The translations under genes were made by a program, and so were the position numbers. The notes under the pieces were generated by a model. That model saw only the letters and a list, made by a program, of their open reading frames with translations, was not told where the DNA came from and searched no databases. A stretch of 64,000 bases of DNA from Colwellia sp. MB02u-6 (GTDB lineage Bacteria > Pseudomonadota > Gammaproteobacteria > Enterobacterales > Alteromonadaceae). The stretch covers positions 1 through 64,000 of the forward strand of contig NZ_JACGVG010000034.1 of assembly GCF_014077095.1 (NCBI RefSeq), read 5' to 3'. Shown here piece after piece: positions 16,730-64,000 of this stretch. The first letter of the stretch is position 1. Every line of letters begins with the position of its first letter.

Positions 16730-16980
16730 GCGTGATTACAAAGATAATTTCACCTTGGAAATACGCGATTAAAAAATAACTGCTCGCAACAGATAATAAA
16801 AAAAGTGCTAAAAAAACGATTGTATTTGTTCAATAAAAACTCAGTAACCTGGCTAGTTATTCATAGGAAGATGAATTTAATATATAAGAATATAGCGGTG
16901 CTTAAGTAAAGGTAATATAGGTATTGATAAGCTTAATTAATATGCGAAATTTTGTTATCATGACTACCTAGAGCTTAATA

Positions 16981-17020
16981 TTTATCTTTTAATGAAAAAA
17001 TTTATCTTTTAATGAAAAAA
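16981..17020 (+). repeat. Perfect 20-bp tandem duplication spanning the start codon
   Basis: Bases 16981-17000 are repeated exactly at 17001-17020. Each unit ends in ATGAAAAAA, so the start codon exists twice. Translation from the first ATG (16992) gives MKKFIF and stops in TAATG, overlapping the real start at 17012. Confidence 0.9.
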
Positions 17021-46369: not shown

Positions 46370-47425
46370 ATGTCTATTTCTACGGATAAATCACGAAGTG
46401 CTAAGAAAATAACGTTAAAAGACGTTGCGAAAAAAGCTGGGGTAAGCGCTATTACCGTTTCTAGAGTAGTAAATGACTATGCTGGAGTACGTGAAAATGT
46501 TCGTGAAAAAGTAGAAGCCGCAATTAGTGAACTTGGTTACATCCCTAACCGATCAGCCAGTATTTTAGCTTCATCACGTTCAAAATTAATTGGTGTTTTA
46601 ATTCCCTCATTATCTAATGTGGTATTTAATGATGTCTTACGTGGAATTTACGACATTACTGGCCCTGCGAATTATCAGGTGCTACTAGCAGATACTCATT
46701 ATTCACCAATAGAAGAAGAAAGATCAATACGTACTTTGCTTGGACAATCTCCAGAGGGCTTAATCGTCACTGGTGGTGAACAAACTGACGCCGCTAAAGC
46801 AATGTTAAAAGCCTCTGGTGTGCCTGTAGTTCAGATTATGGATAAGGTTGAATCGCCAATAGATATTAATGTTGGCTTTTCTCATTATGATGCAGGTGCA
46901 GCCGTTGCAGAGATGTTACTTGCAAAGTCATATCATAAAATTGGTTTTATTGGCGCCAGAATGGATCCCAGAACCTGTGACCGCTTGGCGGGTTTTAAAT
47001 CAGTACTAGCTGCGGCTGAGTCTTTAGATTTAAAACGCGTGATAACTAATCCACAACCCTCTTCTGTTGCCATGGGAACGGTTTTATTTAGAGAGTTGAT
47101 GGCGGCCACTGCTGGTGATTGTGATGCCGTTTTTTGTTGTAACGATGACTTAGCCTTGGGAGTATTGCATGAATGTAAAAAAATGCATATTAACGTACCC
47201 AGTAAATTTGGAGTGTGTGGGTTTAACGACATTGAAATGGCAACATATGCTGAACCTTCATTATCGAGCGTGAGTGTTAACCGATACAAAATGGGTAAGC
47301 AAGCCATGGAACTGATATTTGCGCGTTTAAATAACTCAGAAATTAGTGACAATGCACAGATAAACACAGAACAAAGTTATGTAAACACGGGGTTTGAATT
47401 ATTCATGCGTAATTCAACCGGATAG
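46370..47425 (+). CDS. gntR: LacI-family transcriptional repressor, GntR-like
   Basis: 351 residues. N-terminal helix-turn-helix ITLKDVAKKAGVSAITVSRVV (about 15-35), hinge ELGYIPNRSASILAS, and a periplasmic-binding-like core. The hinge and early core (GYIPNR..IL....S..IGVLIPSL.N.VF..VLRGI) and GFIGARMDPRT align closely with E. coli GntR, the gluconate repressor. It probably binds the TGGTTGC sites at 44702-44809 in the absence of gluconate. Located between permease and lactonase genes, it is likely cotranscribed with the permease. Confidence 0.9.
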   Translation: MSISTDKSRSAKKITLKDVAKKAGVSAITVSRVVNDYAGVRENVREKVEAAISELGYIPNRSASILASSRSKLIGVLIPSLSNVVFNDVLRGIYDITGPANYQVLLADTHYSPIEEERSIRTLLGQSPEGLIVTGGEQTDAAKAMLKASGVPVVQIMDKVESPIDINVGFSHYDAGAAVAEMLLAKSYHKIGFIGARMDPRTCDRLAGFKSVLAAAESLDLKRVITNPQPSSVAMGTVLFRELMAATAGDCDAVFCCNDDLALGVLHECKKMHINVPSKFGVCGFNDIEMATYAEPSLSSVSVNRYKMGKQAMELIFARLNNSEISDNAQINTEQSYVNTGFELFMRNSTG

Positions 47426-48783: not shown

Positions 48784-49578
48784 TTACGCTAATTCAACAT
48801 TGACTGTTGTATTGTTATTTAATGTTTGATTCGACCAATGCTCATGGCGAAATGCGGAAGGGCTTCGATCGAATAACTTTTGAAACTGTCGACTAAAATA
48901 ACTGTGATCAGCAAAGCCCGTATCATTAGCAATAGTGGCAATAGCAATATTGGTTTCTATGAGTAAGCGTCGCGCATTTTCTAAGCGTACTTCATTGATA
49001 AACTGTGTAGGTGTTTGACGTAAATACTTTTTAAACCTTCGCTCTAGCGCACTTATAGACAAATGGGTGATATCAGCAAGTTCTTTCAAACAAATATTTT
49101 GCATATAGTTTTTTCGCACATAAGCAACAGGTGTCTTTAAGGCATCCATTCCAGATAGTGCGAGTGATGTTTTTTCTAAATGTCGTGATATACCATAAGA
49201 GCCAATAGGTTTTCCCTGCTCATCAAGCAAAGGACGTTTTGATGTAGTAAACCAAGCGATATCACCTGATGTAGTATTGTTCATCTCTAAGCGGTTATTA
49301 ACAACTTCGCCATGCATCACTTTCTGATCATCGACAGTAAACTGTTTAGCAAGATGAGCAGGAGAAAAATCAAAATCACTTAACCCGATAATTTGAACAA
49401 GTGACGTGACGCCAATATGCTCCAAAAAGAATTGATTTGCATAAACAAAACAGTTTTGTTCATCTTTTACCCAAAAAAGTACATCAGGCATCAGATCAAA
49501 CATTTCAATGATTTGTTTTACACTAAATTGATTAATAAACCTATCTACACAAGCTGCCGACATAGCCACCTTACTCAT
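48784..49578 (-). CDS. PAS domain-AraC family transcriptional regulator
   Basis: 264 residues in two parts. Residues 15-135 form a PAS domain (MFDLMPDVLFWVKDEQNCFVYANQFF...PIGSYGISRHL), a small-ligand or cofactor sensor. Residues 150-250 form the double helix-turn-helix of AraC proteins (ICLKELADITHLSISALERRFKKYLRQTPTQFINEVRLENARRLL and IATIANDTGFADHSYFSRQFQKLFDRSPSAFR). It is divergent from the TonB receptor gene. The two CCGATTT direct repeats 21 bp apart at 49655 and 58666 have the geometry expected for such a protein, so it is the best candidate regulator of the receptor and of the sugar operon. Confidence 0.9.
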   Translation of the reverse strand: MSKVAMSAACVDRFINQFSVKQIIEMFDLMPDVLFWVKDEQNCFVYANQFFLEHIGVTSLVQIIGLSDFDFSPAHLAKQFTVDDQKVMHGEVVNNRLEMNNTTSGDIAWFTTSKRPLLDEQGKPIGSYGISRHLEKTSLALSGMDALKTPVAYVRKNYMQNICLKELADITHLSISALERRFKKYLRQTPTQFINEVRLENARRLLIETNIAIATIANDTGFADHSYFSRQFQKLFDRSPSAFRHEHWSNQTLNNNTTVNVELA

Positions 49579-49650: not shown

Positions 49651-49723
49651 AACGCCGATTTTGTTGTATAAAAAACCGATTTACTCTTAACACTTCATTG
49701 AAAAACATCATTATAGTAAATAA
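49651..49723 (+). promoter_or_regulatory. Shared AraC-type operator/promoter module, copy 1
   Basis: 73 bases, 65 identical without gaps to 58662-58734. Two CCGAT repeats start at 49655 and 49676 (21 bp apart). TTAACA (49687-49692) and TATAGT (49712-49717) are 19 bases apart, in the same places in both copies. It points to the TonB receptor gene 300 bases downstream. The intervening leader (49724-50018) shows no gene. Confidence 0.8.
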
Positions 49724-50018
49724 TCACTTTTTATGCATATCTATACATTTAAGCTTGTCGTGCAAAGAGTGTTGATTTTTAAGCGTAAGTATATTTATTT
49801 GATTGAGAGTCAGTTCTAAATTGCAAATTGACTAGCGGAAAAATAAATTTCATTCGTCTTTATACATAGGAAAAGGAAATCTGGCGTTCAAGAAAACCAG
49901 GGGGAATAAGAAACAAAGTATAACAAAAAAACAGAAAGGTTTAGCTATAGACGAATGTAATAGCAGTATCGTATGCACTACACCTTGATAATAAAAAACT
50001 ATAATAGGCAACATAAGC

Positions 50019-53000
50019 ATGATGAACAATAATTATAAAACCTTTAATAAATCATTACTCGCCAAAACTATTAGTGTAATGCTTGGTACTTCAGTAATGG
50101 TGCCAGTGTTAGCAGAAGAAATTAAGACAGAAGAAGAAAAACTTGAAGTTATTCAAGTCACAGGTATGCGAGGCAGTTTATCTCAATCAATGAATGTTAA
50201 GCGTCAATCAACAGGTGTTGTTGATGCTATTTCTGCTGTGGATATGGGGCAATTTCCTGATACCAATCTCGCAGAATCTTTGCAACGTATTACGGGTGTA
50301 TCAATTAACCGAGTTAACGGTGAAGGTTCAGAAGTCACCGTACGTGGCTTTGGCGGTAACTTTAATTTAGTGACCTTAAATGGCCGTCAAATGCCAGCAG
50401 CAAACGTTGGTACTATTACGGGTAACCCACAAGATAAAGGTGCAGCAGGGACGAGTCGTTCATTTGATTTCTCAAACCTTGCCTCTGAAGGCGTAAGTGG
50501 AATAGAAGTATATAAAACAGGACGCGCTGCAGGTTCTTCTGGTGGTATTGGTGCAACAATCAACATTAATACAGTTAAACCACTTGAACAAAGCGAAAAT
50601 TCAACTTCTATTGGCGTTAAAGGCGTTAAAGATGAAAGTGGCGATGGTATCACGCCTGAAATAAGTGGTGTAACAACTTGGGTAAATGATGACTCAACTT
50701 TTGGTGTTTCATTATTTGGTTCATTCCAAGAACGTGACTCTGGCAGTCGACACATGAGTACTGAAGTGTACGAGTTGCGTACATATAATGGCGCAGAGGA
50801 TTTAGATTCTCTGACCATCCCAGGTGCTACCGTAGTAAATGAACCGACTATTGGTCAAATTCTAGCGATACCTAGTAATATTGGCTTAGGTACTAACCAA
50901 GATCATCGTGAGCGTACTAATGCGATGCTAACGTTGCAATATCAACCAATCGACGAGCTTAGATTGACCTTTGATGCAACATATGCAAAAAATGAGAAAG
51001 AATCTACATCACTTATCGATGGTATTTGGTTTGCACGTCAATTCAGCTCTGTTGAATTTGATGGTAACCCTGTAGTGTCTACACCGGTCAAGTTTTCTGA
51101 GACAGGTGGCGCAAATAACCAAGTTATTGGTAAAGATTTCTTCTTCCAAAATTTAGCGTTAGCAACAAAAGATGAATTAAAATCTTTTGGTTTTAATGCG
51201 GCTTATGAAGTAAATGATGACTTAAGCTTAAGTTTTGATGTTGCATCTTCAGAAGCAACAAGTGGTGGTGCTGGTCCTTTAGGATTAAACTCTGTTCGTT
51301 TTAATATGGCAGGTGCAACAGCTGGTTTTCAAACAGTTGACTTTACTCAGCCAATTCCTGCAGCAAGTATCTTAATTGAAGATTCACTAAAAGGTGGCAA
51401 CGGTAATGGGATTTTTGATAAAGCTGATGTTGGCTCTCAAGTCACACAAACCGATATGTCTAATCAAGTTTCAAATGTTGACCAATTCCGTATTGAAGGC
51501 CAATGGTTTGTTGATGACATTACTGTTGATTTTGGTGTTGGATATATTTCAACAGAAATGAGACAAACACGTCAAGCGTCAACTGACGCTTTAGGTGATT
51601 GGGGTGTAACAGCTCCAGGCGATATCCCAGAGGGTTTATTTGATCAAAGCTGTACAGCTTGTGCGTTTGAAGACCATGATATATCTGGCGTTGACGGTGC
51701 CGATACTCTTTCTCCAGGTGGTGCAACAATACCACTCGGTAGTGTTTCATTTAGTGGTGATCCAGTAGCACTTCTAAATGCAGTCGGTCCTGCCTATGGT
51801 GTATCTTTAGCGGGTCGCTCCATTAATACAGATGATGATAATACGGTTGAAGAAGACATTTTATCTGTATATGTTCAAGCGAATATGGATTATGACGTTG
51901 CTGATATGACATTAAATATCGTTGCAGGTTTACGTTACGAGCAAACAGATGTTACTTCATCGTCGAATCAATTTTTGCCTACACAAATAATTTGGGAAGC
52001 TGATAACGACTTTTTACCCGTACTAGGTGACACAGTAGAAACGATCAGAGACGAAAATGACTACTCTAACTTTTTACCAAGTATTGATTTTACGCTTAAC
52101 GTAAACGACGACATTAAGGCCCGTGCTTCTTTTAGTAAAACATTGGCTCGACCTTCTTATGATCAACTGTTTCAGTCTACGTCAATATCACCTCAACCCC
52201 GCATAACAGCATTGGGTGGTGTAGCAACTGGTAAATCAGGTAATGCACAGTTAGATCCACTTGAATCAACAAACATTGATTTATCTTTAGAGTGGTATTA
52301 CAGCGATTCAAGCCTAATTTCTATCGGTTACTATAGAAAAGACGTTGAAAACTTTGTGGGTATAGCGCAAAGTCAAAAAACATTATTTGGTTTACTCGAT
52401 GCGACTTCAGGTGCGGATGGTACTACTTCAGGTGACGCAATAGCAGCATTAAATGCAGGTGGTTATGATGTTAACGAAGTTAACTTATTTACCATGTCGG
52501 CAGTTTTACAAAATCCAGCTGACTTTCCTAATGGCGCTGCAGACTTTGAAGACCCTGGTGTAAATCCAAATTTTGAAGGTGAAGTGTTTGCTGCTTATGA
52601 TGTATTTGCACAAGCTGGTGATCCAGAATTACAGTTTCAAGTAACGGGTCCAGTTAACGATAAAAGTGCGGTGATCGACGGTTTTGAATTTGCATGGCAG
52701 CATTTCTTTGGTGAAACTGGTTTTGGCTATCAAGTAAACTATACTACCGTAAATGGTGATATTGGTTATGATAATGGTGGTTCTATCAATGTTGATCAAT
52801 TCGCATTGGAAGGTTTAAGCGATACGGCTAACGCCGTATTAATTTATGAAATGGACGGCTTTTCAACACGTATTGCTTACAACTGGAGAGATGAGTTTTT
52901 AAGTACGACTAATCGTGGTAAAGGTCCACGTAACCCAGTATATCTTGCGGAAGCTGAGCAAATCGATATTAACGTGAGTTATAGTCCACTTGAAGACTTA

Positions 53001-53129
53001 ACTGTAAGTTTAGATATTATTAACTTAACTGAAGAAGGTCTTCGTAAGTATGGTCGTAGTAAAAACAATATTTTCTTTGTTCAAGAAGCAGATAGACGTT
53101 TTGTGTTAAGTGCTAATTACAAATTTTAG
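50019..53129 (+). CDS. TonB-dependent receptor
   Basis: 1036 residues. A signal peptide ends near residue 32 (VPVLA), followed by a TonB box-like EVIQVTGMRGSL. The plug domain contains DTNLAESLQRITGVSINR, EVTVRGFGGNFNLVTLNGRQMP, and GIEVYKTGRAAGSSGGIGATINI; the rest is a 22-stranded barrel ending ADRRFVLSANYKF. The type is that of sugar-linked receptors of Alteromonadales and Caulobacterales (RGFG.NFN.VTLNGR..), not siderophore receptors. It presumably imports the glycoside handled by the genes downstream. Start is MM at 50019/50022. A hairpin and an intrinsic terminator follow, so downstream genes are partly uncoupled. Confidence 0.93.
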   Translation: MMNNNYKTFNKSLLAKTISVMLGTSVMVPVLAEEIKTEEEKLEVIQVTGMRGSLSQSMNVKRQSTGVVDAISAVDMGQFPDTNLAESLQRITGVSINRVNGEGSEVTVRGFGGNFNLVTLNGRQMPAANVGTITGNPQDKGAAGTSRSFDFSNLASEGVSGIEVYKTGRAAGSSGGIGATININTVKPLEQSENSTSIGVKGVKDESGDGITPEISGVTTWVNDDSTFGVSLFGSFQERDSGSRHMSTEVYELRTYNGAEDLDSLTIPGATVVNEPTIGQILAIPSNIGLGTNQDHRERTNAMLTLQYQPIDELRLTFDATYAKNEKESTSLIDGIWFARQFSSVEFDGNPVVSTPVKFSETGGANNQVIGKDFFFQNLALATKDELKSFGFNAAYEVNDDLSLSFDVASSEATSGGAGPLGLNSVRFNMAGATAGFQTVDFTQPIPAASILIEDSLKGGNGNGIFDKADVGSQVTQTDMSNQVSNVDQFRIEGQWFVDDITVDFGVGYISTEMRQTRQASTDALGDWGVTAPGDIPEGLFDQSCTACAFEDHDISGVDGADTLSPGGATIPLGSVSFSGDPVALLNAVGPAYGVSLAGRSINTDDDNTVEEDILSVYVQANMDYDVADMTLNIVAGLRYEQTDVTSSSNQFLPTQIIWEADNDFLPVLGDTVETIRDENDYSNFLPSIDFTLNVNDDIKARASFSKTLARPSYDQLFQSTSISPQPRITALGGVATGKSGNAQLDPLESTNIDLSLEWYYSDSSLISIGYYRKDVENFVGIAQSQKTLFGLLDATSGADGTTSGDAIAALNAGGYDVNEVNLFTMSAVLQNPADFPNGAADFEDPGVNPNFEGEVFAAYDVFAQAGDPELQFQVTGPVNDKSAVIDGFEFAWQHFFGETGFGYQVNYTTVNGDIGYDNGGSINVDQFALEGLSDTANAVLIYEMDGFSTRIAYNWRDEFLSTTNRGKGPRNPVYLAEAEQIDINVSYSPLEDLTVSLDIINLTEEGLRKYGRSKNNIFFVQEADRRFVLSANYKF

Positions 53130-53179
53130 ACTTTGATTAAATTTTTCAGTTCAATCAATTAGCTGAAGATATTTATTCG

Positions 53180-53229
53180 ATACCATTCCTCATATTTTAC
53201 GTTATAAAATTATTTATGAGGATTGGTAT
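53180..53229 (+). repeat. Long hairpin after the TonB receptor gene
   Basis: ATACCATTCCTCATA and TATGAGGATTGGTAT pair at 14 of 15 positions around a 20-base loop. With the terminator that follows it could stabilise the 3' end of the receptor mRNA. Confidence 0.6.
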
Positions 53230-53235
53230 TACCTA

Positions 53236-53272
53236 AGAATGAAACATGATATTAATGTTTCATTCTTTTTTT
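53236..53272 (+). terminator. Intrinsic terminator after the TonB receptor gene
   Basis: AGAATGAAACAT and ATGTTTCATTCT form a 12-bp perfect stem with a seven-base loop and a seven-T run. It lies between the receptor and SapC genes. Confidence 0.92.
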
Positions 53273-53336
53273 AAGGTCATTGTTCCTAGTAATTTATGGG
53301 GGTATGACACAACTTTATAATAAAGCGAAGTATGCG

Positions 53337-54062
53337 ATGAGCAATGCAATAGTCTTAAATAATGTAGATCATAAAGATATTAAGGTTGATACACGACCTG
53401 AATCTAACTTAAATGTAAATCGTTCATTGATATACGCTACTGAAATAGGCGAATTACATAAAGAATTCCCCTTGGTTTTTCACAAAAATTCTGAAACAGG
53501 GCTCACACAGTTACACGCGATATTGGGTTTGGAAAGAGATGAAAACCTGTTTATGGGTGATAATGGTTGGACAACTCGATTTGTACCCGCATTACTTGCA
53601 AGAGGCCCATTTAGTTTAGGCTATAAAAAAGCGATTAAAGAAAATAACGCGCAACAAGATCCTGTTATTTGCATTGATATGGAAGATACTCGGGTAAATA
53701 CCGATCAGGGTGAGAATGTTTTTCTTCAATTTGGTGGCGAAGCACCTTACCTAAATTATGTAAAAAAAGCACTGCAAACTATTGATCGTGGAATGCAATT
53801 TGATAAAACACTTTATACCCTAGTTAAGTCAATGGACTTGTTAGAACCCGTATCTATCAACATTAAACTCAGTAATGTAGAAGAAGTGAATTTCACTGAT
53901 TATTATACGGTTAACCAAGATAAACTCGCAAAACTCGATGGCGCTAATTTAGCTGAGTTGAACCAATATGGCGTACTAAGTTTGTTATATTTTGTATTGT
54001 CGTCGATGGGGAATTTCCAAACATTGATAGCGCTAAAAAATGCAAAATCTGCAATGTATTAA
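53337..54062 (+). CDS. SapC family protein
   Basis: 241 residues from ATG at 53337, where MSNAIVLNNVDHKDIKV matches the usual SapC family start; the open frame reaches back to 53280 but has no homology there. Other family segments are EIGELHKEFPLVFHKNSETGLTQLHAILGL, NLFMGDNGWTTRFVPALLARGPFSLGY and CIDMEDTRV. There is no secretion signal. SapC-like genes accompany TonB receptors and tryptophan-halogenase genes in many marine bacteria; the biochemical role is unknown (the name comes from a Campylobacter S-layer locus). It begins an operon with the cupin and halogenase genes. Confidence 0.88.
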   Translation: MSNAIVLNNVDHKDIKVDTRPESNLNVNRSLIYATEIGELHKEFPLVFHKNSETGLTQLHAILGLERDENLFMGDNGWTTRFVPALLARGPFSLGYKKAIKENNAQQDPVICIDMEDTRVNTDQGENVFLQFGGEAPYLNYVKKALQTIDRGMQFDKTLYTLVKSMDLLEPVSINIKLSNVEEVNFTDYYTVNQDKLAKLDGANLAELNQYGVLSLLYFVLSSMGNFQTLIALKNAKSAMY

Positions 54063-54104
54063 TCCTTTGTTAAAACGGTATATTCTAACTAACGAAGGAC
54101 GTGC

Positions 54105-55172
54105 ATGATGATAATTAACAATCAGCGTAAAACCGATACTAAAATGGTAGTAAAGGTGCTCGAAGGGATCACCCCTCAAACGATCCCTTATGATGAACTA
54201 TTTTCGCATAACCAGCCTATTATTTTAAAAGGGTTAGTCAAAGACTGGCCGTTAGTGCAAGCTGGACAAGAATCAGCTCAGCAATCCTCTAATAGCGTAA
54301 TGGCTCAACTCGAGCAGCATTACAATAAACGTCCATTACTTGTTTACAAAGCTCCCACTGAAAATAAAGCCCGTTTTGGTTACAACAAAAGCTGCACCGG
54401 TTTCAACTTCTCTAGTAACCGAAGCACCCTTTCCGAAGTTTTTGATGCTATACGTAACCAACTTAGCCAAGAAGAACATGATTATTTTTACATTAATTCA
54501 CTCAGATTTGATGAAGGGTTCCCTACGCTTAATCAAACGAATAAATTAGACTTTGATCATGCCGAATTTAAAAATAACCAACCGGTTTCAAAAATTTGGT
54601 TAGGCACAGAATCTGTTGCCGCCGCACATTTTGATCAACCCAAAAATATTGCCTGTTGCGTAGCAGGTAAAAGACGTTTCACTTTGTTTCCTCCAGATCA
54701 AATCAATAATCTATACCCTGGACCATTAAGTCCTACCCCTGGAGGTCAAGTGGTTACCTTAGCTGATCTCAGCAAGCCAGACTTTAGCCGCTTTCCACGT
54801 TTAAAAGAAGCGCTTGATAATGCCTATATTGCAGATCTTGAACCTGGTGATGGCCTATATTACCCCAGTATGTGGTGGCATGAAGTAGAAGCATTTGATC
54901 GTTTCAATGTCATGGTGAATTATTGGTGGATGGAAGCAGACCCTTATTTAGGCAGCCCAATGGATGCATTAATGCATGCCATGATGAGCATAAGAGATCG
55001 CCCAACAAAAGATAAAGAAGCATGGAAAGCATTATTTGATTACTACATTTTTGGTGATAGCGAAAATGTACGTGCACACTTACCGCCCGAAAGTCATGGC
55101 GCGTTAGCCAATATTGACGAAAATCAATCGAGACGATTGGGTGCCATGTTGAGAAATAACCTCAATCGCTAA
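54105..55172 (+). CDS. Cupin-like JmjC (cupin 8) domain protein
   Basis: 355 residues. The JmjC-type iron triad is visible: HFD in AAHFDQPKNIACCVAGKRRF (His and Asp near 185-187) and the distal histidine in SMWWHEVEAFDRFNVMVNYWW (near 263). The FPPDQINNLYPGP part is the fold's signature. It resembles 2-oxoglutarate/Fe(II)-dependent hydroxylases of the FIH/PASS1 group that often sit next to SapC and halogenase genes. AAGGA (54095-54099) serves either ATG at 54105 or 54108. The substrate is unknown. Confidence 0.88.
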   Translation: MMIINNQRKTDTKMVVKVLEGITPQTIPYDELFSHNQPIILKGLVKDWPLVQAGQESAQQSSNSVMAQLEQHYNKRPLLVYKAPTENKARFGYNKSCTGFNFSSNRSTLSEVFDAIRNQLSQEEHDYFYINSLRFDEGFPTLNQTNKLDFDHAEFKNNQPVSKIWLGTESVAAAHFDQPKNIACCVAGKRRFTLFPPDQINNLYPGPLSPTPGGQVVTLADLSKPDFSRFPRLKEALDNAYIADLEPGDGLYYPSMWWHEVEAFDRFNVMVNYWWMEADPYLGSPMDALMHAMMSIRDRPTKDKEAWKALFDYYIFGDSENVRAHLPPESHGALANIDENQSRRLGAMLRNNLNR

Positions 55173-55236
55173 TATTAAACTAACACAAAACTAAAATTAC
55201 ATTGGTGTTAATGCTTAAGCTAAGAGACAGAATATA

Positions 55237-56724
55237 ATGACCGATTCAAAAACTAAAGTAGTTATCGCTGGTGGTGGAACATCTGGTTGGCTTAGCGCAT
55301 ATAGCTTAGTATCTCGCCTTGGCAGTCTATTGGATATAACGCTAGTAGAATCTGATCAGATTGGCACTATTGGTGTAGGCGAAGCGACAATCCCTACCAT
55401 ACGAGCGTATCATCAATTAATTGGGATAGATGAACAAGAATTTATGTCTGCGACTCAAGCAACCTTCAAATTAGGTATTCAGTTTGAAAATTGGGGGCAA
55501 GCAGAAGACAGTTATTTTCACTCTTTTGGTGAAATTGGTCAACGCTCTTGGATGGCAGAATTTCATGAGTTTTGGATGGAAGCTAAAGCACAAGGGTTTG
55601 GTGGGAGCCTTGAAGATTACTGTCTTGAGCTAAAAGCAGCTAAAGCGAATAAATTTGCCAAACAAACAGGCAAAAAAAACATTAATTATGCTTATCATTT
55701 CAATGCAACCGCATATGCCACATTTTTACGGACTAAAAGTGAAATGGCAGGTGTTAAGCGTGAAGAAGGTTTTATAGAACAAATAAGCAAAGATGAAACT
55801 GGCAATATAACCTCACTGACCTTAGGCAATGGTAAAGAAATTACAGGTGATTTTTTTATTGATTGTACTGGTTTTAGAGCACTACTTATTGGAGAAAGTC
55901 TTGACGTTGGTTATCAAGATTGGAGTCATTATCTAGCGGCAGACAGTGCGATTGCTGTGCAAACAAAAGCAGTAGAAGAACCAATACCATATACAAAAGC
56001 TATGGCTCACTCCGCAGGCTGGCAATGGCGAATTCCCCTGCAAAACCGTGTCGGCAATGGTATTGTTTATAGCAGCAAATTTTTATCTGATGATGATGCT
56101 CGCACTACGTTAATGGGAAATCTCACTGGAGAACCAATCTCTGAGCCTAGACAACTTCGTTTTACTACGGGTCGACGCGAAAAAGCCTGGCATAAAAACT
56201 GTGTTGCTGTTGGTTTATCTAGTGGATTTTTAGAGCCATTGGAGTCAACCAGTATTCACCTTGTTACGACCGCCTTACTTCGACTCATGAAAATGTTTCC
56301 CTTTGGCGGTAATACAGTTTTACTGGCTAAACAATATAATCATGAGGTAAAGTTAGAAGCTGAAACCATTCGTGATTTTATCATTCTTCATTATCATTTA
56401 ACCGAGCGAGATGACAGCCCATTTTGGGATCATTATCGTTCCATGGAAATTCCTGAATCGTTGGCTCATCGAATGGCTATTTTTAAAGAAAATGGTTATG
56501 CATGGCTTGATGATATTGGCTTATTTAGAGTGGATTCTTGGGTGCAAGTAATGATGGGACAGGGCATTATGCCTGAGCAACATCATAAAGGTAGCTGTGT
56601 TCTGCCTACTGAAGGGTTAAAAGAGCAAATGACGGTACTCCGAAATAGGGTTGCAAACGCGGTTGCTCAATTACCACAACATTCAGACTTTATTAAAAAA
56701 TACTGTCCCGCTAAAAGTGACTAA
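55237..56724 (+). CDS. Flavin-dependent tryptophan-halogenase-like protein 1
   Basis: 495 residues. FAD-binding VVIAGGGTSGWLSAY (8-22) and halogenase motif GWQWRIP (near 266-272; family WxWxIP). By my alignment to PrnA, the lysine for hypochlorous-acid channelling is in ATFKLGIQF (near 75) and the glutamate is in SSGFLEPLESTSI (near 333), so both key residues are kept. Expected reaction: FADH2-, oxygen- and halide-dependent halogenation of a substrate, or a changed reaction on the same fold. Members next to TonB receptors are thought not to act on free tryptophan. It starts 64 bases after the cupin gene. Confidence 0.9.
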   Translation: MTDSKTKVVIAGGGTSGWLSAYSLVSRLGSLLDITLVESDQIGTIGVGEATIPTIRAYHQLIGIDEQEFMSATQATFKLGIQFENWGQAEDSYFHSFGEIGQRSWMAEFHEFWMEAKAQGFGGSLEDYCLELKAAKANKFAKQTGKKNINYAYHFNATAYATFLRTKSEMAGVKREEGFIEQISKDETGNITSLTLGNGKEITGDFFIDCTGFRALLIGESLDVGYQDWSHYLAADSAIAVQTKAVEEPIPYTKAMAHSAGWQWRIPLQNRVGNGIVYSSKFLSDDDARTTLMGNLTGEPISEPRQLRFTTGRREKAWHKNCVAVGLSSGFLEPLESTSIHLVTTALLRLMKMFPFGGNTVLLAKQYNHEVKLEAETIRDFIILHYHLTERDDSPFWDHYRSMEIPESLAHRMAIFKENGYAWLDDIGLFRVDSWVQVMMGQGIMPEQHHKGSCVLPTEGLKEQMTVLRNRVANAVAQLPQHSDFIKKYCPAKSD

Positions 56725-56780
56725 TTTACCAAAAGTAGATGTTACTTAGCGGAGCATAAATGATTAACAACTGAATTCAA

Positions 56781-58328
56781 TTGATATTAGAAGATAAAAT
56801 GAAAACGAGAATTGTGATTGTTGGTGGTGGTACAGCAGGTTGGTTAACGGCAGGTATTATTGCTGCTCGTCATTATATAAAAGATTCTCCAACACAGAAT
56901 ACTCAAGTTACCCTTGTGGAATCGCCAGATGTTAAAAATTTGGGGGTTGGTGAAGGCACATGGCCAACTATGCGAGATACCCTTCGCCAAATTGGCATTT
57001 CTGAGCGTGAGTTCCTCTCTTGTTGTGACGCGAGTTTTAAACAAGCCTCTAAATTTGTCGGTTGGTCTCAGGGGAAAAATGAGCATTATTATCATCCTTT
57101 TACGGCACCTTCCGGTTATGGTGCGTTAAGCATGGCTGATCACTGGTCAGCATCAACGAAAGATATAGATTTTGAACGTTGGGTTTGTGCACAAGGGGCT
57201 ATTTGTGACAAAAATCTAGCGCCTAAACTTCCACAAATGCCTGAATATGCTTTTAGTTTGAATTATGGCTATCACCTTAACGCAGGTAAATTTGTTAAAA
57301 TGCTTCATCAGCACTGTCTTGATAAGCTAGGGGTTAGTTATATACAAGGGCATGTTGAGCAGGTTCTACCTGCAGAAAATGGCGATATAGCTTCACTTAT
57401 ATTAACGAGTGGCGAGCAAATGTTGGGCGATTTATTTATCGACTGCAGTGGCTTTGCTGCTATTTTGATTGGCAAACATTATCAAGTCCCTTTTAAGTCA
57501 CAGCAACATATTTTGTTTAATGACACGGCATTAGCGGTTCAAGTCGAGCATGTTGATAATCAAACACCTATCGCTTCATGTACTGTCGCAACCGCTCAAA
57601 ACAGTGGTTGGATTTGGGATATTTCGCTGCAAAATAGACGAGGAATAGGTCATGTTTTTTCGAGCGATTTTACAACTTCAGAAAAAGCAGACGAGACGTT
57701 GTATAGGTATTTGAAAAACGATCCCTTTATTAATTCACAAAATATCACCTCTCGAAAAATTAAGTTTACTCCAGGTTATAGAGAAAAATTCTGGCATAAG
57801 AACTGTGTAGCTATTGGTGTTTCAGCGGGTTTTGTTGAACCTTTAGAAGCTACTGCTTTGGTATTAATTGAAAAATCAGCTGAGTGGATCAGTCAGCAAC
57901 TTCCGCGAGATGGCAGTGCTATGAAAGTTTTGGCGAAAAGGTTTAATCATTTAACCTTGCAAAGATGGCAAGAAATCATCGATTTTCTTAAGTTACATTA
58001 CCTACTATCGAAACGAACAGACAGTGCGTATTGGCAAGCGCATCAACAAGTAGAGTCAATTCCCGAAAGTTTACAGGAATCATTGCAACTATGGCGTTCA
58101 CAAGCTCCAGGGCTTTATGAGACAAATCAACGTTTTGAACTGTTTTCGTCAGCAAGTAAGCAGTACGTTTTGTATGGTATGGGCTTCAATACAATGAAAC
58201 AAACATTAGCTCAGAAAGAAGCTTCGTTAATAAAGCGTCTACTCAACGAAACGCGTAATACTACTGAGCAATTGTTCAATGCATTGCCAACGAACAGGGA
58301 GTTTCTCTCTAAAATAAGGCAAAAATAA
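56781..58328 (+). CDS. Flavin-dependent tryptophan-halogenase-like protein 2
   Basis: 515 residues; the frame opens at 56781, but MKTRIVIVGGGTAGW at 56799 (the seventh codon) is an equally plausible start. FAD motif GGGTAGWLTAG; WxWxIS in GWIWDISLQNRRG instead of WxWxIP; lysine in ASFKQASKFVGW; glutamate in SAGFVEPLEATAL, where the serine after the glutamate is alanine. It is clearly a diverged paralogue, only partly similar to halogenase 1. A tandem pair of unlike halogenases suggests two positions or two substrates. It ends the SapC operon. Confidence 0.9.
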   Translation: MILEDKMKTRIVIVGGGTAGWLTAGIIAARHYIKDSPTQNTQVTLVESPDVKNLGVGEGTWPTMRDTLRQIGISEREFLSCCDASFKQASKFVGWSQGKNEHYYHPFTAPSGYGALSMADHWSASTKDIDFERWVCAQGAICDKNLAPKLPQMPEYAFSLNYGYHLNAGKFVKMLHQHCLDKLGVSYIQGHVEQVLPAENGDIASLILTSGEQMLGDLFIDCSGFAAILIGKHYQVPFKSQQHILFNDTALAVQVEHVDNQTPIASCTVATAQNSGWIWDISLQNRRGIGHVFSSDFTTSEKADETLYRYLKNDPFINSQNITSRKIKFTPGYREKFWHKNCVAIGVSAGFVEPLEATALVLIEKSAEWISQQLPRDGSAMKVLAKRFNHLTLQRWQEIIDFLKLHYLLSKRTDSAYWQAHQQVESIPESLQESLQLWRSQAPGLYETNQRFELFSSASKQYVLYGMGFNTMKQTLAQKEASLIKRLLNETRNTTEQLFNALPTNREFLSKIRQK

Positions 58329-58661
58329 ATAGAGTTATTTATGAATCGATACTCATTTATTAAAATAAATTCTGGTTACCTTCGTTCAGTCTTTAGCTGA
58401 ATACTTGATCGATTTGATGATAACTTTTTCTGCTTCTTATAACTGTTTAAGAATAGTGGACACACCACAAAATCCCCCCAAAGTATCGCGACTATAAAGT
58501 CGATACGCTCAATTGCTTGGATCTGTTGAACAAGTAATATTTGCATCTAAGTATTATTCAATTTATATAAACACTAAAGTCCGTAAAAATAACTCATCAA
58601 AAGAAAGTAATTGATTGTCTTGTCTCTTTTTCAACAAATAAAAAACCAACAAAAAATAAAC
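58329..58661. other. Intergenic region with a hairpin, possible element remnant
   Basis: GTATCG-C-GACT and AGTCGATAC (58483-58506) pair around ATAA with one bulged base. AATAGTGGACACACC nearby (58453-58467) and the composition resemble insertion-sequence debris, but I cannot assign it. No gene. Confidence 0.3.
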
Positions 58662-58734
58662 AACGCCGATTTTGTTGTATAAAAAACCGATTTATTCTTA
58701 ACACAATATTGAAAAATGTCTCTATAGTAAATAA
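58662..58734 (+). promoter_or_regulatory. Shared AraC-type operator/promoter module, copy 2
   Basis: 65 of 73 bases match 49651-49723 without gaps. CCGAT repeats start at 58666 and 58687 (21 bp), TTAACA at 58698-58703, TATAGT at 58723-58728 (spacer 19). The Gfo/Idh gene starts 94 bases after TATAGT. The first 33 bases, which hold both repeats, are identical to copy 1. Confidence 0.8.
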
Positions 58735-58822: not shown

Positions 58823-60049
58823 ATGCGTAAAATTAGAATGGGAATGGTGGGTGGTGGAAAAGGCGCTTTTATTGGCGCTATTCATCGTATAGCTGCACAA
58901 CTAGATAACCAAATTGAGCTAGTTTGTGGCGCGTTTAGTTCTGATCCTGACAATGCAGTTTCATCAGGTAAATCACTGTATTTAGATGAAGATAGATGCT
59001 ACCGCTCTTACCAAGAGATGTTTGAGACAGAAGCAAAGCTAAGTGATGATAAACGTATGGATATGGTGTCTATTGTCACGCCTAATCATCTGCATTTCCC
59101 TGTTGCTAAAATGGCCCTTGAATATGGCTTTCATGTGATGTCTGATAAACCGGCAACGGTTGACTTAGTTCAAACCTTGGCGTTGAAAGAAATTATTGAA
59201 CACACTGGGTTATTGTACGGCTTAACACATACCTACACGGGTTACCCTATGATAAAAGAAGCTAAAGCGCGCATTAAACATGGGCAATTGGGTAATATTA
59301 AAAAGGTTGTTGTTGAATATCCACAAGGTTGGTTAGCACATAAAAAAGATGAAGGCAGTAAACAGGCTTCATGGCGATTAGATCCTAAAAAGTCAGGGAT
59401 TAGCTGTTGTATGGGGGATATTGGCGTACATTCTGCCAACCTCGCAGAATACGTGACAGGTCTTGCGATAACGGAAATTTGTGCTGATTTATCGAGTAGT
59501 GTTACCGGACGAATACTTGATGACGACGGCACTGTATTGTTACGTTTTAATTCAGGTGCAGAAGGTGTTTTACTGGCGAGCCAAATCTCAGTGGGTGAAG
59601 AGAATAGTCTTAAATTACGTGTATACGGTGAAACAGCAAGTATTGAATGGTCACAACTTGAACCTAACAGTGTTTGGATGAAGTTTACAGATAAACCGAG
59701 TCAGTTGATTCGTGCCGGCGTTGGTGGAATGGATGCTATAACACAAGCAAACATGAGAACGCCTGCAGGTCATCCAGAAGGTTACCTAGAAGCATTCGCT
59801 AATATTTATACGCAGTTCTCATATCAAATACGCAGAAGATTATTCCCCAGCACGTGTAATAAAGAGACTAACGACCTTGTTAGCATTAATGACGCCGCTA
59901 TGAATGATGTCCCAGGCATAGAGTCTGCAGTAAGGGGTATGGCCTTTATTGAGAATGTTGTGGCTGCGAGTCAATCTGAATTGAAATGGCACCCTTTTTT
60001 ATTAGTACCACAAAACATTACTATTCCAAACAAACTAAAAAAAGCATAA
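58823..60049 (+). CDS. Gfo/Idh/MocA family oxidoreductase
   Basis: 408 residues. N-terminal Rossmann motif RMGMVGGGKGAFIGAIH and the family catalytic region HVMSDKPATVDL (DKP where EKP is common; lysine kept) and GDIGVHSANLAEYVTG with the catalytic aspartate/histidine pair. It is an NAD(P)-dependent sugar or inositol dehydrogenase/ketoreductase in the cytoplasm. It is the first gene of a five-gene unit and sits directly behind operator copy 2. In this context it could reduce or oxidise the 3-keto form of a glycoside. AAGAG precedes the ATG. Confidence 0.9.
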   Translation: MRKIRMGMVGGGKGAFIGAIHRIAAQLDNQIELVCGAFSSDPDNAVSSGKSLYLDEDRCYRSYQEMFETEAKLSDDKRMDMVSIVTPNHLHFPVAKMALEYGFHVMSDKPATVDLVQTLALKEIIEHTGLLYGLTHTYTGYPMIKEAKARIKHGQLGNIKKVVVEYPQGWLAHKKDEGSKQASWRLDPKKSGISCCMGDIGVHSANLAEYVTGLAITEICADLSSSVTGRILDDDGTVLLRFNSGAEGVLLASQISVGEENSLKLRVYGETASIEWSQLEPNSVWMKFTDKPSQLIRAGVGGMDAITQANMRTPAGHPEGYLEAFANIYTQFSYQIRRRLFPSTCNKETNDLVSINDAAMNDVPGIESAVRGMAFIENVVAASQSELKWHPFLLVPQNITIPNKLKKA

Positions 60050-60059
60050 GGAGAATTTC

Positions 60060-61124
60060 ATGGGAAAATCAATGAAAAAAATTAAAGGTCCCGCTATTTT
60101 CCTTGCACAATTCATTGGCGATGAAACTCCATTTAATGACTTACCATCATTATGTCAATGGGCTGCGGGGTTAGGGTATAAAGGTATTCAATTACCCACG
60201 GACCCTAAACTTATCGACTTATCGAAAGCGGCAATCAGTCAAAGCTATTGTGATGAAATAAAAGCGATAGTGGCTGAAGCTGGTTTAGAGATCACTGAGC
60301 TTTCGACACATCTTCAAGGTCAACTGGTCGCAGTACATCCTGCTTATGACAAAATGTTCGATGGTTTTGCACCTGAAGCGTTACGAAATAATCCTTCAGC
60401 TAGAACAGAATGGGCGATAGAACAACTGAAATGTGCGGCGAAAGCGAGTGAAAGACTCGGTTTAAAAGCTCATGCTACTTTTTCAGGTGCATTGTTGTGG
60501 CACACCTTTTATCCATGGCCACAAAGACCTCCCGGTTTAGTTGAATTAGGTTTTGAAGAATTAGCTAATCGCTGGTTACCTATTCTTGATGCATTTGATG
60601 AAGCGGGTGTTGACGTTTGTTATGAATTACATCCAGGTGAAGATTTACATGATGGCGCAAGCTTCGAACGCTTTCTTGAAGCGGTAAATAACCATCCTCG
60701 CGCTAATATTTTATATGATCCAAGTCACTTCGTTTTACAGCAACTCGATTACCTTGCTTTTATCGATATCTATCATGATCGAATTAAAGCCTTTCATGTT
60801 AAAGATGCCGAGTTCAATCCGTCAGGTCGCAGCGGTGTGTACGGTGGTTATCAATCTTGGCAAGATAGGCCAGGACGTTTTCGCTCCTTGGGCGATGGTC
60901 AAATTAACTTCAAAGCCATTTTTAGCAAACTGACTCAATATGGTTTTACGGGGTGGGCTGTGCTCGAGTGGGAGTGTTGTATTAAACATCCAGAAGATGG
61001 TGCTAAAGAAGGGGCGATATTTATTGCCCAACATCTTATTAATCCAACGGACAAAGCCTTTGACAATTTTGCTGCCGTAGCTACAGACAATAATGTTAAT
61101 AAAAGCCTTTTAGGGCTGAAATAA
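60060..61124 (+). CDS. Sugar phosphate isomerase/epimerase family (AP-endonuclease 2-like TIM barrel)
   Basis: 354 residues. The xylose-isomerase-like TIM barrel shows ALGYKGIQLP-type first strand (AAGLGYKGIQLPTDPK), ELSTHLQGQL, YELHPGEDLHDG, ILYDPSHFVLQ, KAFHVKDAEF and VLEWEC, with metal ligands Glu, Asp-x-x-His, His and Glu. Members isomerise or epimerise sugars and keto-sugars; related proteins hydrolyse 3-keto-glycosides. AAGGAG at 60048-60053 fixes the ATG at 60060; the gene follows the Gfo/Idh stop by 10 bases. Confidence 0.9.
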   Translation: MGKSMKKIKGPAIFLAQFIGDETPFNDLPSLCQWAAGLGYKGIQLPTDPKLIDLSKAAISQSYCDEIKAIVAEAGLEITELSTHLQGQLVAVHPAYDKMFDGFAPEALRNNPSARTEWAIEQLKCAAKASERLGLKAHATFSGALLWHTFYPWPQRPPGLVELGFEELANRWLPILDAFDEAGVDVCYELHPGEDLHDGASFERFLEAVNNHPRANILYDPSHFVLQQLDYLAFIDIYHDRIKAFHVKDAEFNPSGRSGVYGGYQSWQDRPGRFRSLGDGQINFKAIFSKLTQYGFTGWAVLEWECCIKHPEDGAKEGAIFIAQHLINPTDKAFDNFAAVATDNNVNKSLLGLK

Positions 61125-61136
61125 AAGAGCAAGACT

Positions 61137-62381
61137 ATGACTGTAAATAAAACAATAAGCGCAAAGAACTCATCCAGAATATTTACCATTTGTTGTTTAG
61201 CTTTGCTTGTTACTTCAATGACTTTTGCAATACGGGCAGGTATTTTAAGTCAACTAGGTGCTGAGTTTTCGCTTAACGATGGTCAGCTTGGTTGGGTAAA
61301 CGCCATGGCTTTTTTAGGTTTTCCTGTCGCTATGATGATAGGTGGGGCTTTATATAATAGCCTTGGAGCTAAAAAGTTACTGATAATTGCCTTTGTATGT
61401 CACTTAGCAGGTCTACTGTTAACTATATCAGCAGAAGGATTTTGGGGCTTACTCATTTCAACCTTCTTTATTGGTTTTGCTAATGGCGCAGTAGAAGCTG
61501 GTTGTAACCCATTAATTGCTGAAACGTATCCAGATAACAAAACTACAATGTTAAATAGATTTCATGTTTGGTTTCCTGGAGGAATCGTTGTAGGAGCGCT
61601 TATTTCAAAAGCGATGACCGATGCGAATTTAGGTTGGCAATTACAAATTGCGGTCATGCTAATTCCTGCCATTTTATATGGCGTGATGACGTTAAAACAG
61701 CACTTTCCAGAAATTGAACGTATCAAAGGCTCTACCCGTGACAATGTAAAAGCATTATTTTCACCGCTATTCATTTTTATGGCGATTTGTATGACATTAA
61801 CAACTACCGCCGAATTGGGCACACAGCAATGGATTGAAAGGATTTTGGGAGCATCAGGTGCATCTCCTATGCTAATCATGGCACTAATTACCGGATTAAT
61901 GGCTGTAGGACGTTATTTTGCAGGCCCAGTCATTCATCGTCTCAATCCTGTTGGCGTGCTTCTATTTTCTGCCATTGTTGCCACTGTGGGAATATATTCA
62001 ATGAGCATTGCTACTGGTTCAATGGTTTATTTTGCCGCAATATTATTTGCGATTGGCGTGATGTATTTCTGGCCAACCATGGTGGGATTTGTTGCAGAGA
62101 ACATTCCAGAAAGTGGTGCTTTAGGCATGTCGATGATTGGTGCTGCAGGCATGTTTGCCTTAAGTCTATGGAATCCTGTTATTGGTAGCTGGATAGACAG
62201 TGCGCGTGAAAGTGCCAATGCTTCAGTTATACCAGGCATAGATCCAGAGCTTGTAGCAGGCCAAAGCGTACTCGCTAATCTAGCTTTTTTCCCCGCGATA
62301 CTCATCATCGCTTTTACATTTTTATACTTATATATGAATAAAAATAAGTCACAGACTGTTGTGACTGCTGATATTAATTAA
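61137..62381 (+). CDS. MFS transporter (sugar type)
   Basis: 414 residues with 12 predicted membrane helices and the MFS loop pattern GGALYNSLGAKKLL (loop 2-3, near 73). NRFHVWFPGGIVVGALIS is typical of the FucP/NanT-like sugar MFS branch. It imports the sugar or processed glycoside across the inner membrane. It begins 12 bases after the isomerase stop, clearly part of the same operon. Confidence 0.9.
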   Translation: MTVNKTISAKNSSRIFTICCLALLVTSMTFAIRAGILSQLGAEFSLNDGQLGWVNAMAFLGFPVAMMIGGALYNSLGAKKLLIIAFVCHLAGLLLTISAEGFWGLLISTFFIGFANGAVEAGCNPLIAETYPDNKTTMLNRFHVWFPGGIVVGALISKAMTDANLGWQLQIAVMLIPAILYGVMTLKQHFPEIERIKGSTRDNVKALFSPLFIFMAICMTLTTTAELGTQQWIERILGASGASPMLIMALITGLMAVGRYFAGPVIHRLNPVGVLLFSAIVATVGIYSMSIATGSMVYFAAILFAIGVMYFWPTMVGFVAENIPESGALGMSMIGAAGMFALSLWNPVIGSWIDSARESANASVIPGIDPELVAGQSVLANLAFFPAILIIAFTFLYLYMNKNKSQTVVTADIN

Positions 62382-62403: not shown

Positions 62404-63039
62404 ATGAATAATGATATTACATCAACATTAGTAACAACGAATGAAAAGTCCAGACGAAATTTTCTAAAGGGCTTCACTACTATGCTTGGCGGCATTACTG
62501 TTGGTTCACTATTAACAGGTAATGCTATCTCTGTTGCGATGGCCTATGTACCAAACAGTGACAGTATTTTAACTGACGGTAAAGTCTTTAATAAAAGCCA
62601 ATTAATGCTACTTAAACAAATATGCTCAATTGTTATTCCAAAAACAGATACTTTAGGCGCCGCAGAAGTTGATACTCATGGTTTTATTGATAATCAACTT
62701 TTTCATTGTCATACCAAAGAAGAACAAAAAACGGTGTTAGCATTATTAAAATTGGTTAATGAAAGTGCTAAAAAACAGTTATCAATGTCTTTTATGAAGC
62801 TAACGTCTGAGCAACAATTTCAACTGTTGAATGACTTTGATTTGGGACAACAACGTTTTAATCAAACTCAGCGTGACGATTTTAAGTTGTTAAAACAATA
62901 TATTTGTTTTGGTTATTACACTTCGGAAGTAGGGGCAACACAAGAGTTACGTTATGACCCAGTTCCGGGTGGCTTTCAAGGTTCAATTCCTTATAAAAAC
63001 TTGGACCCTTCATGGGCTACCAGAGGTTTATTTAATTAA
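62404..63039 (+). CDS. Gluconate 2-dehydrogenase subunit 3-like protein, Tat-exported
   Basis: 211 residues. A twin-arginine signal KSRRNFLKGFTTMLGG (about 17-32) precedes a hydrophobic stretch and AMA cut site. The mature part (FNKSQLMLLKQICSIVIPKTDTLGAAEVDTHGFID...YYTSEVGATQELRYDPVPGGFQG) is the gluconate 2-dehydrogenase subunit 3 family, the small partner that carries a GMC oxidoreductase out through Tat. The ribosome site is a run of nine G (62392-62400) three bases before the ATG, prone to slippage. Directly precedes the GMC gene. Confidence 0.9.
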   Translation: MNNDITSTLVTTNEKSRRNFLKGFTTMLGGITVGSLLTGNAISVAMAYVPNSDSILTDGKVFNKSQLMLLKQICSIVIPKTDTLGAAEVDTHGFIDNQLFHCHTKEEQKTVLALLKLVNESAKKQLSMSFMKLTSEQQFQLLNDFDLGQQRFNQTQRDDFKLLKQYICFGYYTSEVGATQELRYDPVPGGFQGSIPYKNLDPSWATRGLFN

Positions 63040-63121: not shown

Positions 63122-64000
63122 ATGAAAGAACAAGTATATATAAATAAAACTAGTGAAGTTTATGATGCCATTGTTATTGGGTCTGGGATCTCCGGCGGTT
63201 GGGCAGCAAAAGAATTTTGTGAACGCGGTCATAAAACCCTAATGATAGAACGTGGCCGTGTTGTCGAGCATCGTAAAGATTACACCGGTGAAAATACACC
63301 AATGTGGAAGCAAGAACTTCGCGGGCGTGTCGATAATATTTTAGTCGATCAACAACATCATATTCAAAAGCAATGTTACGCTTTTGGTAATACCACTAAG
63401 CACTTTTTTGGTAATGACCGCGACCTACCTTACACCACCAAAAAAGGTACTGAATTTTCTTGGATACGGGCAAATCAGTTAGGCGGAAAATCTTTATTAT
63501 GGCATCGACAAACCTACCGTTTAGGTGAGTATGACTTCAATGCCAATAAACTAGATGGTCATGGAAATGACTGGCCAATTCGCAGCAAAGATATTGAAAA
63601 ATGGTATTCACACGTTGAGATACATGCAGGTATAAGTGGCTCTAAAGAAAATTTACCCAATTTACCTGACAGTGAATTTTTGCCTCCATTTGAAATGACG
63701 TCGCCAGAAAAAGCGATACAAGCAAAACTTGCTGAATTATACCCTGAACGCCCTTTAATTATGGGGCGTACGGCTCATTTAACTCAACCTTCAGAATTAC
63801 ATGTGTCACAAGGTCGAGTAAAGTGTCAGGCACGAAATGAATGCCATGCTGGTTGTTCTTACGGTGCTTATTTTTCTACGCAAAGCTCAACTTTACCAGC
63901 CGCGGCAAAAACAGGTAATTTACACATTGCGCCCAACAGTGTTGTGCATAGCCTTATTTATGATGAAAAAACTAATCGTGTTAAGGGTGTACGAGTCATT
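63122..64000 (+). CDS. GMC family oxidoreductase (partial, runs off window)
   Basis: 293 codons are seen, no stop. ATG at 63122; FAD motif DAIVIGSGISGGWAAKEFCERG (about 14-35), and RANQLGGKSLLWHRQTYRLG as the GMC flavin-binding second stretch. No signal peptide is present, so it would be co-exported with the Tat partner encoded upstream. The pair matches the layout of periplasmic glucoside 3-dehydrogenase or gluconate/sorbitol dehydrogenases; a cytochrome c subunit might follow beyond the window. It oxidises a sugar or glycoside alcohol group, passing electrons to the respiratory chain. Confidence 0.9.
   Translation, partial: MKEQVYINKTSEVYDAIVIGSGISGGWAAKEFCERGHKTLMIERGRVVEHRKDYTGENTPMWKQELRGRVDNILVDQQHHIQKQCYAFGNTTKHFFGNDRDLPYTTKKGTEFSWIRANQLGGKSLLWHRQTYRLGEYDFNANKLDGHGNDWPIRSKDIEKWYSHVEIHAGISGSKENLPNLPDSEFLPPFEMTSPEKAIQAKLAELYPERPLIMGRTAHLTQPSELHVSQGRVKCQARNECHAGCSYGAYFSTQSSTLPAAAKTGNLHIAPNSVVHSLIYDEKTNRVKGVRVI

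Follow-up and report, generated by a model that had tools for sequence, protein, structure and literature searches.

A PAS-AraC regulator and two near-identical 73-bp operator-promoters very probably form a two-unit local regulon in Colwellia sp. MB02u-6, in which the regulator would bind both elements and activate the uptake and the non-hydrolytic breakdown of glucosides. Sequence comparison shows the operator itself, the direct repeat that builds it, its restriction to two sites, and its association with PAS-AraC and with the genes of both units. The conserved pairing of regulator and operator is of a kind already known, and the regulon is newly outlined here.

In the window (the whole 64,000-nt stretch of DNA that was analyzed), positions 49651-49723 and 58662-58734 agree, ungapped, at 65 of their 73 positions, including all of the first 33 nt, and their flanks differ as the first-pass annotation had stated (29% identity over the adjoining 73 nt upstream, 36% downstream). 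The perfect match reaches 2 nt upstream of the 73-nt stretches, giving a longest exact repeat of 35 nt. This is far above chance, since the longest exact repeats in 30 simulated windows (first-order Markov) measured 14 to 18 nt. Each copy also contains the claimed pair of CCGATTT heptamers with a period of 21 nt, starting at 49655 and 49676 in copy 1 and at 58666 and 58687 in copy 2, and the claimed −35-like TTAACA and −10 TATAGT with an equal 19-nt spacer. The promoters so predicted lie on the forward strand at 49687..49717 for the TonB-dependent receptor (TBDR) operon (−35 at 49687-49692, −10 at 49712-49717) and at 58698..58728 for the Gfo operon (−35 at 58698-58703, −10 at 58723-58728).

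The scan of the complete genome that the first-pass annotation had proposed returned the exact pattern CCGATTT-N14-CCGATTT at two places in 4.01 Mb, both in the window (control pattern, 0), and a search with a 29-mer allowing up to 3 mismatches again found only two sites. A profile of 68 columns scored the two window sites at E = 2.5e-16 and 3.0e-16, followed by a partial match at E = 0.026; this search scored 150 of 3,748 first-look candidates, and weak sites may escape it. A wider regulon in this genome was rejected on these counts, and occurrence of the pattern at many unrelated genes, which had been named as grounds for doubt, did not materialize.

The two copies precede two sets of forward-strand genes. 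Unit 1, after copy 1, encodes a TBDR (TIGR01782; 50019..53129), a SapC-family protein (53280..54062), a Cupin_8 protein (54105..55172), and two Trp_halogenase-family flavoproteins, of which the first (55237..56724) has WxWxIP at residue 262 and in the second (56781..58328) no intact WxWxIP was found. Unit 2, after copy 2, encodes a Gfo/Idh oxidoreductase (58823..60049), a TIM-barrel protein (60060..61124), a major facilitator superfamily (MFS) transporter (61137..62381), a protein of the gluconate 2-dehydrogenase subunit 3 (G2DH3) family (62404..63039), and a GMC oxidoreductase (63122..64000, ending at 64846 beyond the window); next to the GMC gene, and outside the window, a second TIM-barrel gene occupies positions 64873-65805 of the contig. 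Gaps inside unit 2 measure 10 to 82 nt, and the gap ahead of it is 494 nt.

The structure of the operator was read from a logo of 86 sites, drawn from the 95 PAS-AraC loci of the family described below and filtered for strand, for a minimum of 10 box matches out of 14 and of 16 matches out of 28 overall, for full length, and for absence of duplicates. Half-site 1 reads CGCCGAWTTTRTYGCAT and half-site 2 reads AACCGAWTTTnTnTTAAC. In operator 1, half-site 1 (CGCCGATTT with the putative B-box TTGTATA, forward strand, 49653..49670) conforms to this logo, and half-site 2 (AACCGATTT with the putative B-box TTAAC, forward strand, 49674..49691) follows at a direct-repeat offset of 21 and overlaps the −35; in operator 2, logo and profile place the half-sites at 58664..58681 and 58685..58702 on the same strand. 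The heptamer columns are conserved partly because the sites were selected on the heptamers. Elsewhere in the logo, T+9 (0.99) and A+13 (0.98) lie inside the 28-mer that served as tie-break and filter, and C-2, G-1, T+30, T+33, A+34, and C+36 (0.88 to 1.00) all lie outside it. The B-box columns T+9/T+30 and A+13/A+34 agree at 0.88 to 1.00 in both half-sites and do not by themselves single out offset 21; self-similarity of the logo is 4.89 at offset 21 and 1.97 at the next best offset (83 of the 86 sites, three misfits left out). TTAAC occupies +32..+36, with T+33 and A+34 at 1.00, which fits a half-site 2 lying over the predicted −35, and the columns of a TAnnnT at +57..+62 are weakly conserved.

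By its sequence, each operator is a direct repeat, at 21 bp, of an AraC-type half-site made of CCGAWTT and a putative B-box, and the second half-site overlaps the predicted −35. An AraC-family layout next to the −35 had been claimed earlier; the direct half-sites at 21 bp stand, and the reading is refined in that TTAACA, previously taken as the −35 alone, probably doubles as the B-box of the second half-site, as indicated by the logo columns there. At araI1-araI2 of Escherichia coli araBAD, AraC likewise faces a direct pair of half-sites, each made of an A- and a B-box, with a 21-bp spacing and with the downstream half-site over the −35. The two systems differ in operator sequence and in their sensors, a cupin-type arm domain in AraC and PAS_4 here.

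The predicted binder of both operators, a designation based on Pfam and on the operators of orthologues, is a 264-aa PAS_4-AraC regulator encoded on the reverse strand at 48784..49578, divergently from and upstream of copy 1. Its Pfam matches are PAS_4 (1e-14), HTH_18 (1.2e-24), and HTH_AraC (5.5e-18); the protein has an AraC-type double HTH domain, and in the DNA the direct half-sites lie roughly two helical turns from each other. The PAS part matches PDB 6ugl, 6kju, 6ide, and 7dwm at E values of 9e-7 to 2e-5, chains that we take to be VqmA. The likeness to VqmA-type regulators is confined to the PAS part, the DNA-binding half being AraC here and not LuxR. This weak match suggests a small ligand, and the PAS domain is probably a sensor of some small molecule connected with the breakdown of glucosides. 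An AlphaFold model of the regulator (mean pLDDT, 56) was too poor for a guess at the ligand. In the titles and abstracts of the open-access literature that we searched, we found no description of this regulator or operator.

PAS-AraC orthologues (E ≤ 1e-60) occur in 89 of 295 family genomes, at 95 loci in 29 genera, and we scanned the 500 bp upstream of all 95 with a two-half-site matrix; five entries (G179, G280, G229, G228b, and G261) were excluded from matrix training, and all 95 loci were still scored. When the matrix was trained without the genome under test, 92 of the 95 loci scored above the maximum of 285 shuffles. The count was again 92 of 95, in 28 of 29 genera, when the whole genus was left out and the threshold was the maximum of 475 shuffles. 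A matrix built from 13 sites only, taken from the window's own genus and three other genera, recovered 76 of the 82 loci in the remaining genera. Every one of the 92 adjacent sites is oriented away from the regulator, the spacing being 21 bp in 90 and 22 bp in 2. Three PAS-AraC loci (G149b, G300, and G170) have no adjacent site, and the genome of each has one elsewhere. The heptamers alone, at 12 or more of 14 matches, were found at 67 of 95 loci versus 0.15 expected from shuffles, and the reversed pattern was found at none of the 95.

Operons of the pathway in genomes without the regulator served as a negative control. The gene for the hydratase of unit 2 (the TIM-barrel gene at 60060) occurs in 123 of the 295 family genomes, 37 of which have no PAS-AraC orthologue, and the operator is absent upstream of 36 of these 37 Gfo/hydratase operons. 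Their neighbors are LacI-family genes in 26 cases, other genes in 7, and diverged PAS-AraC genes (33 to 35% identity) in 4. The single positive (G150) lies beside one of the diverged PAS-AraC genes, and the other three operons beside such genes have a degenerate 22-bp version under the threshold. Where PAS-AraC is encoded elsewhere in the genome, 9 of 19 hydratase operons pass, three of the nine only a little above the null; these 19 are what is left of the 22 operons lying more than 4.5 kb from PAS-AraC once G000, G006, and G185 are set apart for a separate treatment of their copy 2. Split by neighbor, the same operons have the site in 0 of 7 LacI-flanked cases and 9 of 12 others, with G020 and G214 counted as misses because their 22-bp variant lies outside the matrix-scanned stretch. 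One genus mostly has 22 bp before its Gfo operon where this is not LacI-flanked. With 92 of 95 PAS-AraC loci positive versus 1 of 37 operons without an orthologue, we conclude from these comparisons that the site accompanies the regulator and that the pathway genes by themselves do not account for it. The link of PAS-AraC to the sites, which the first-pass annotation had marked as conjecture, gains comparative support in this way, as does its claim that the operator defines a regulon. The other observation it had set against the regulon, absence from orthologous loci, applies only to genomes lacking PAS-AraC, to LacI-flanked Gfo operons, and to a small number of further misses.

The same counts bear on a second candidate binder. 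A LacI-family regulator is encoded at 46370-47425, 2.2 kb from site 1, and many orthologous Gfo operons are flanked by LacI proteins, which could mean that the sites are LacI operators. We give this reading almost no credence. None of 33 LacI-flanked Gfo operons has the site (26 without a PAS-AraC orthologue, 7 with it elsewhere), a co-occurrence result on which LacI was rejected as the binder; the PAS-AraC loci of four genomes (G077, G099, G132, and G136) carry the site with no LacI match within the 15 to 20 kb examined; and the site is a direct repeat, unlike the palindrome expected of LacI operators. That LacI flanks the operon in 26 of 37 relatives without PAS-AraC, with the site in 0 of 26, looks instead like a natural replacement of one regulator by another.

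Two similar copies could also arise if the promoter had recently been duplicated or had undergone gene conversion, and their regulatory meaning would then be limited to shared descent. In line with such an event, 35 nt are identical between the copies, and within the genome they share 64 of 73 positions when framed as in the orthologue comparison, about as many as each shares with its nearest orthologue (65 and 66). We nevertheless consider it very improbable. In both G006 and G185 the two copies precede the orthologous genes, which disfavors a recent event, and conservation spans the operator across 28 genera. The flanks of copy 1 are 51 to 76% alike among G000, G006, and G185, versus 15 to 52% alike to copy-2 flanks; the downstream flanks of copy 2 agree at 65% between G000 and G185, and those of G006 at only 37 to 38%. 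The pair is therefore older than at least the divergence from G185 and, judged by where the genes stand, older than that from G006 too. Sequence comparison thus marks the copies as old and constrained, not recently duplicated. Gene conversion may still have homogenized the 33-nt core, since the likeness between the copies is about that between orthologues.

To see which genes the operator precedes in relatives, we searched 20 genomes, most of them picked because they contain the motif or the regulator, with a profile (model R1, with 44 of the 86 sites as its training set), scoring up to 150 first-look candidates per genome. At E < 1e-4 there are at least 31 sites, in 19 of the 20 genomes. Training had excluded 15 of the 31, and 13 of these 15 precede pathway or TBDR genes, among them the Gfo operons of G000, G006, G012, G138, and G185 and the TBDR cassettes of G079 (orthologous to that in the window), G127, and G154. 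The rest of the 13 precede G2DH3-GMC-isomerase genes in G099, where these genes stand apart from the Gfo part of the pathway; GMC-G2DH3 in G149; 3-keto-disaccharide hydrolase and GMC genes in G079 and G183; and a G2DH3 gene beside PAS-AraC in G154. Of the other two sites, one precedes a GntP-like permease gene in G149. The second (E = 1.3e-10) is in G276, which has no PAS-AraC at E ≤ 1e-60, and the genes after it are a GH5 gene and two AraC-type genes of other kinds. These two sites count against the proposed regulon, as do the three PAS-AraC loci with no adjacent site, the pass rate of only 9 in 19 where the regulator is encoded elsewhere, the 22-bp spacing in one genus, and the B-box columns, which alone do not pick out offset 21. 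The bare exact two-heptamer pattern occurs at 49 places in the 295 family genomes, not above its reversed-pattern control, which by eye is larger; its frequency was discarded as evidence, since the heptamers alone would mislead. Specificity resides in the spacer and B-box and in position, not in two heptamers alone. The exact 28-mer had no match in a search of genome contigs from which the window's own genome was perhaps left out.

The products of unit 2 point to a chemical route. The 60060 product is identical to PDB 8ro4, a 2-hydroxy-3-keto-glucal hydratase, at 257 of 349 positions (73.6%; E = 2e-185), and it is predicted to have this activity; the match does not name the source organism of the 8ro4 chain. 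The 58823 product clearly belongs to the Gfo/Idh family, its best PDB match (3v5n, E = 4e-99) being named only "Oxidoreductase," and by analogy it is predicted to be a 3-keto-glucose reductase. The GMC protein resembles fructose and glucose dehydrogenases, and with the G2DH3 protein, its presumed small subunit, it is predicted to oxidize glucosides, which makes it a candidate for their oxidation at C3. The second TIM-barrel protein, a candidate 3-keto-glucoside eliminase, has a generically named best PDB match (8tct, E = 4.5e-18). By inspection, the N-terminus of G2DH3 is Tat-like and that of the second TIM-barrel protein is Sec-like, which suggests that oxidation and elimination could be periplasmic, with import by the MFS transporter and then hydration and reduction inside the cell. 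Unit 2 probably encodes a non-hydrolytic, oxidative pathway for glucosides. An Agrobacterium operon for glucoside oxidation, elimination, hydration, and reduction includes a hydratase of this kind, a second isomerase-like eliminase, and a Gfo reductase (PMC10628242, section 7); PMC12101588 cites Kastner 2024 (Angew. Chem.). The Agrobacterium tumefaciens pathway (AtOGE, AtHYD, Gfo reductase) likewise has Gfo, two isomerase-like proteins, and an oxidizing enzyme in one operon; the operon here differs in its predicted GMC/G2DH3 oxidation with a Tat-like signal, in its transporter gene, and in its predicted PAS-AraC operator.

We infer from these data how the regulon would operate in terms of binding, dimerization, activation, inducer, and substrate. 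Inducer-bound PAS-AraC would bind each operator as a dimer, on two direct half-sites of 17 to 18 bp placed 21 bp apart, each with an A-box (CCGAWTT) and a B-box about 10 bp further on. Since the second half-site overlaps the predicted −35, a class II-type activator is most likely, one that would contact RNA polymerase and so offset a poor promoter with a 19-bp spacer. Because that half-site covers the −35, PAS-AraC might conversely act as a repressor until ligand releases it, and activation and repression are not distinguishable by sequence. We regard repression as unlikely, since an AraC-type protein whose direct half-sites reach over the −35 is usually an activator and the promoter, with TTAACA and its 19-bp spacer, looks weak. 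Activation by AraC at araI1 and araI2 (PMC4760080) and the definition of class II activators (PMC8811837) agree with this. As an activator, PAS-AraC would switch on unit 1 for outer-membrane uptake, with TBDR, SapC, cupin, and the two Trp_halogenase-family flavoproteins, and unit 2 for the oxidation, elimination, hydration, and reduction that would free glucose from glucosides without hydrolysis.

Through the operator that both units share, the cassette of TBDR, SapC, cupin, and "tryptophan halogenase" genes would be tied to oxidative glucoside catabolism. To our knowledge, the Trp_halogenase-family flavoproteins of such cassettes have no settled role. As a tentative and rather doubtful suggestion, they might act on the aglycone or the sugar during glucoside uptake, for instance of algal aryl glucosides, with PAS-AraC sensing an intermediate such as 2-hydroxy-3-keto-glucal. 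The host family consists mostly of marine bacteria. For a recently described route of glucoside breakdown, our analysis adds a precisely delimited operator and a regulator that is predicted to be dedicated to it, and by linking TonB-receptor/halogenase-like cassettes to a defined pathway it makes their role testable, with glucosides as candidate substrates.

Between the genes for the TonB-dependent receptor (TBDR) and SapC of the copy-1 cassette, the intergenic gap contains a hairpin of 13 pairs followed by a T run (window 53235-53267). This element could perhaps cause partial termination between the two genes. A second cassette of TBDR, Trp_halogenase-family and SapC genes lies immediately outside the window (L074; 69699-78221 of the same contig, C34), preceded by apparent sigma-factor and FecR-like genes, as named from their translations. 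The operator was not found at this second cassette in a genome profile search in which 150 of 3748 first-look candidates were scored.

Elsewhere in the window, DDE transposase matches occur in one of the frames at 42636-43666, directly preceding the GntP gene, and these frames are possibly an old insertion at the edge of the cluster. A tandem repeat with a 20-bp period (16980-17025) contains ATTTATCTTTTAATGAAAAAAT two or more times, the copies being offset by 20.

In genus g5, the operator upstream of the Gfo operon occurs in a variant form with 22-bp spacing (L224, L233, L235, L236, L238, L239 and L240), which is strong at some loci and weak at others. An orphan operator (L091:4682) is present in G276, a genome without PAS-AraC at the orthologue cut-off (E<=1e-60); two AraC-type genes distinct from PAS-AraC lie downstream, together with a GH5 gene, and G239, of the same genus, carries PAS-AraC and an isomerase gene at that place.

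Among the 37 family genomes lacking a PAS-AraC orthologue (37 operons, loci L186-L222), 26 have a LacI-family gene flanking the Gfo/hydratase operon, with the operator absent. These LacI-flanked operons apparently represent regulator replacement.
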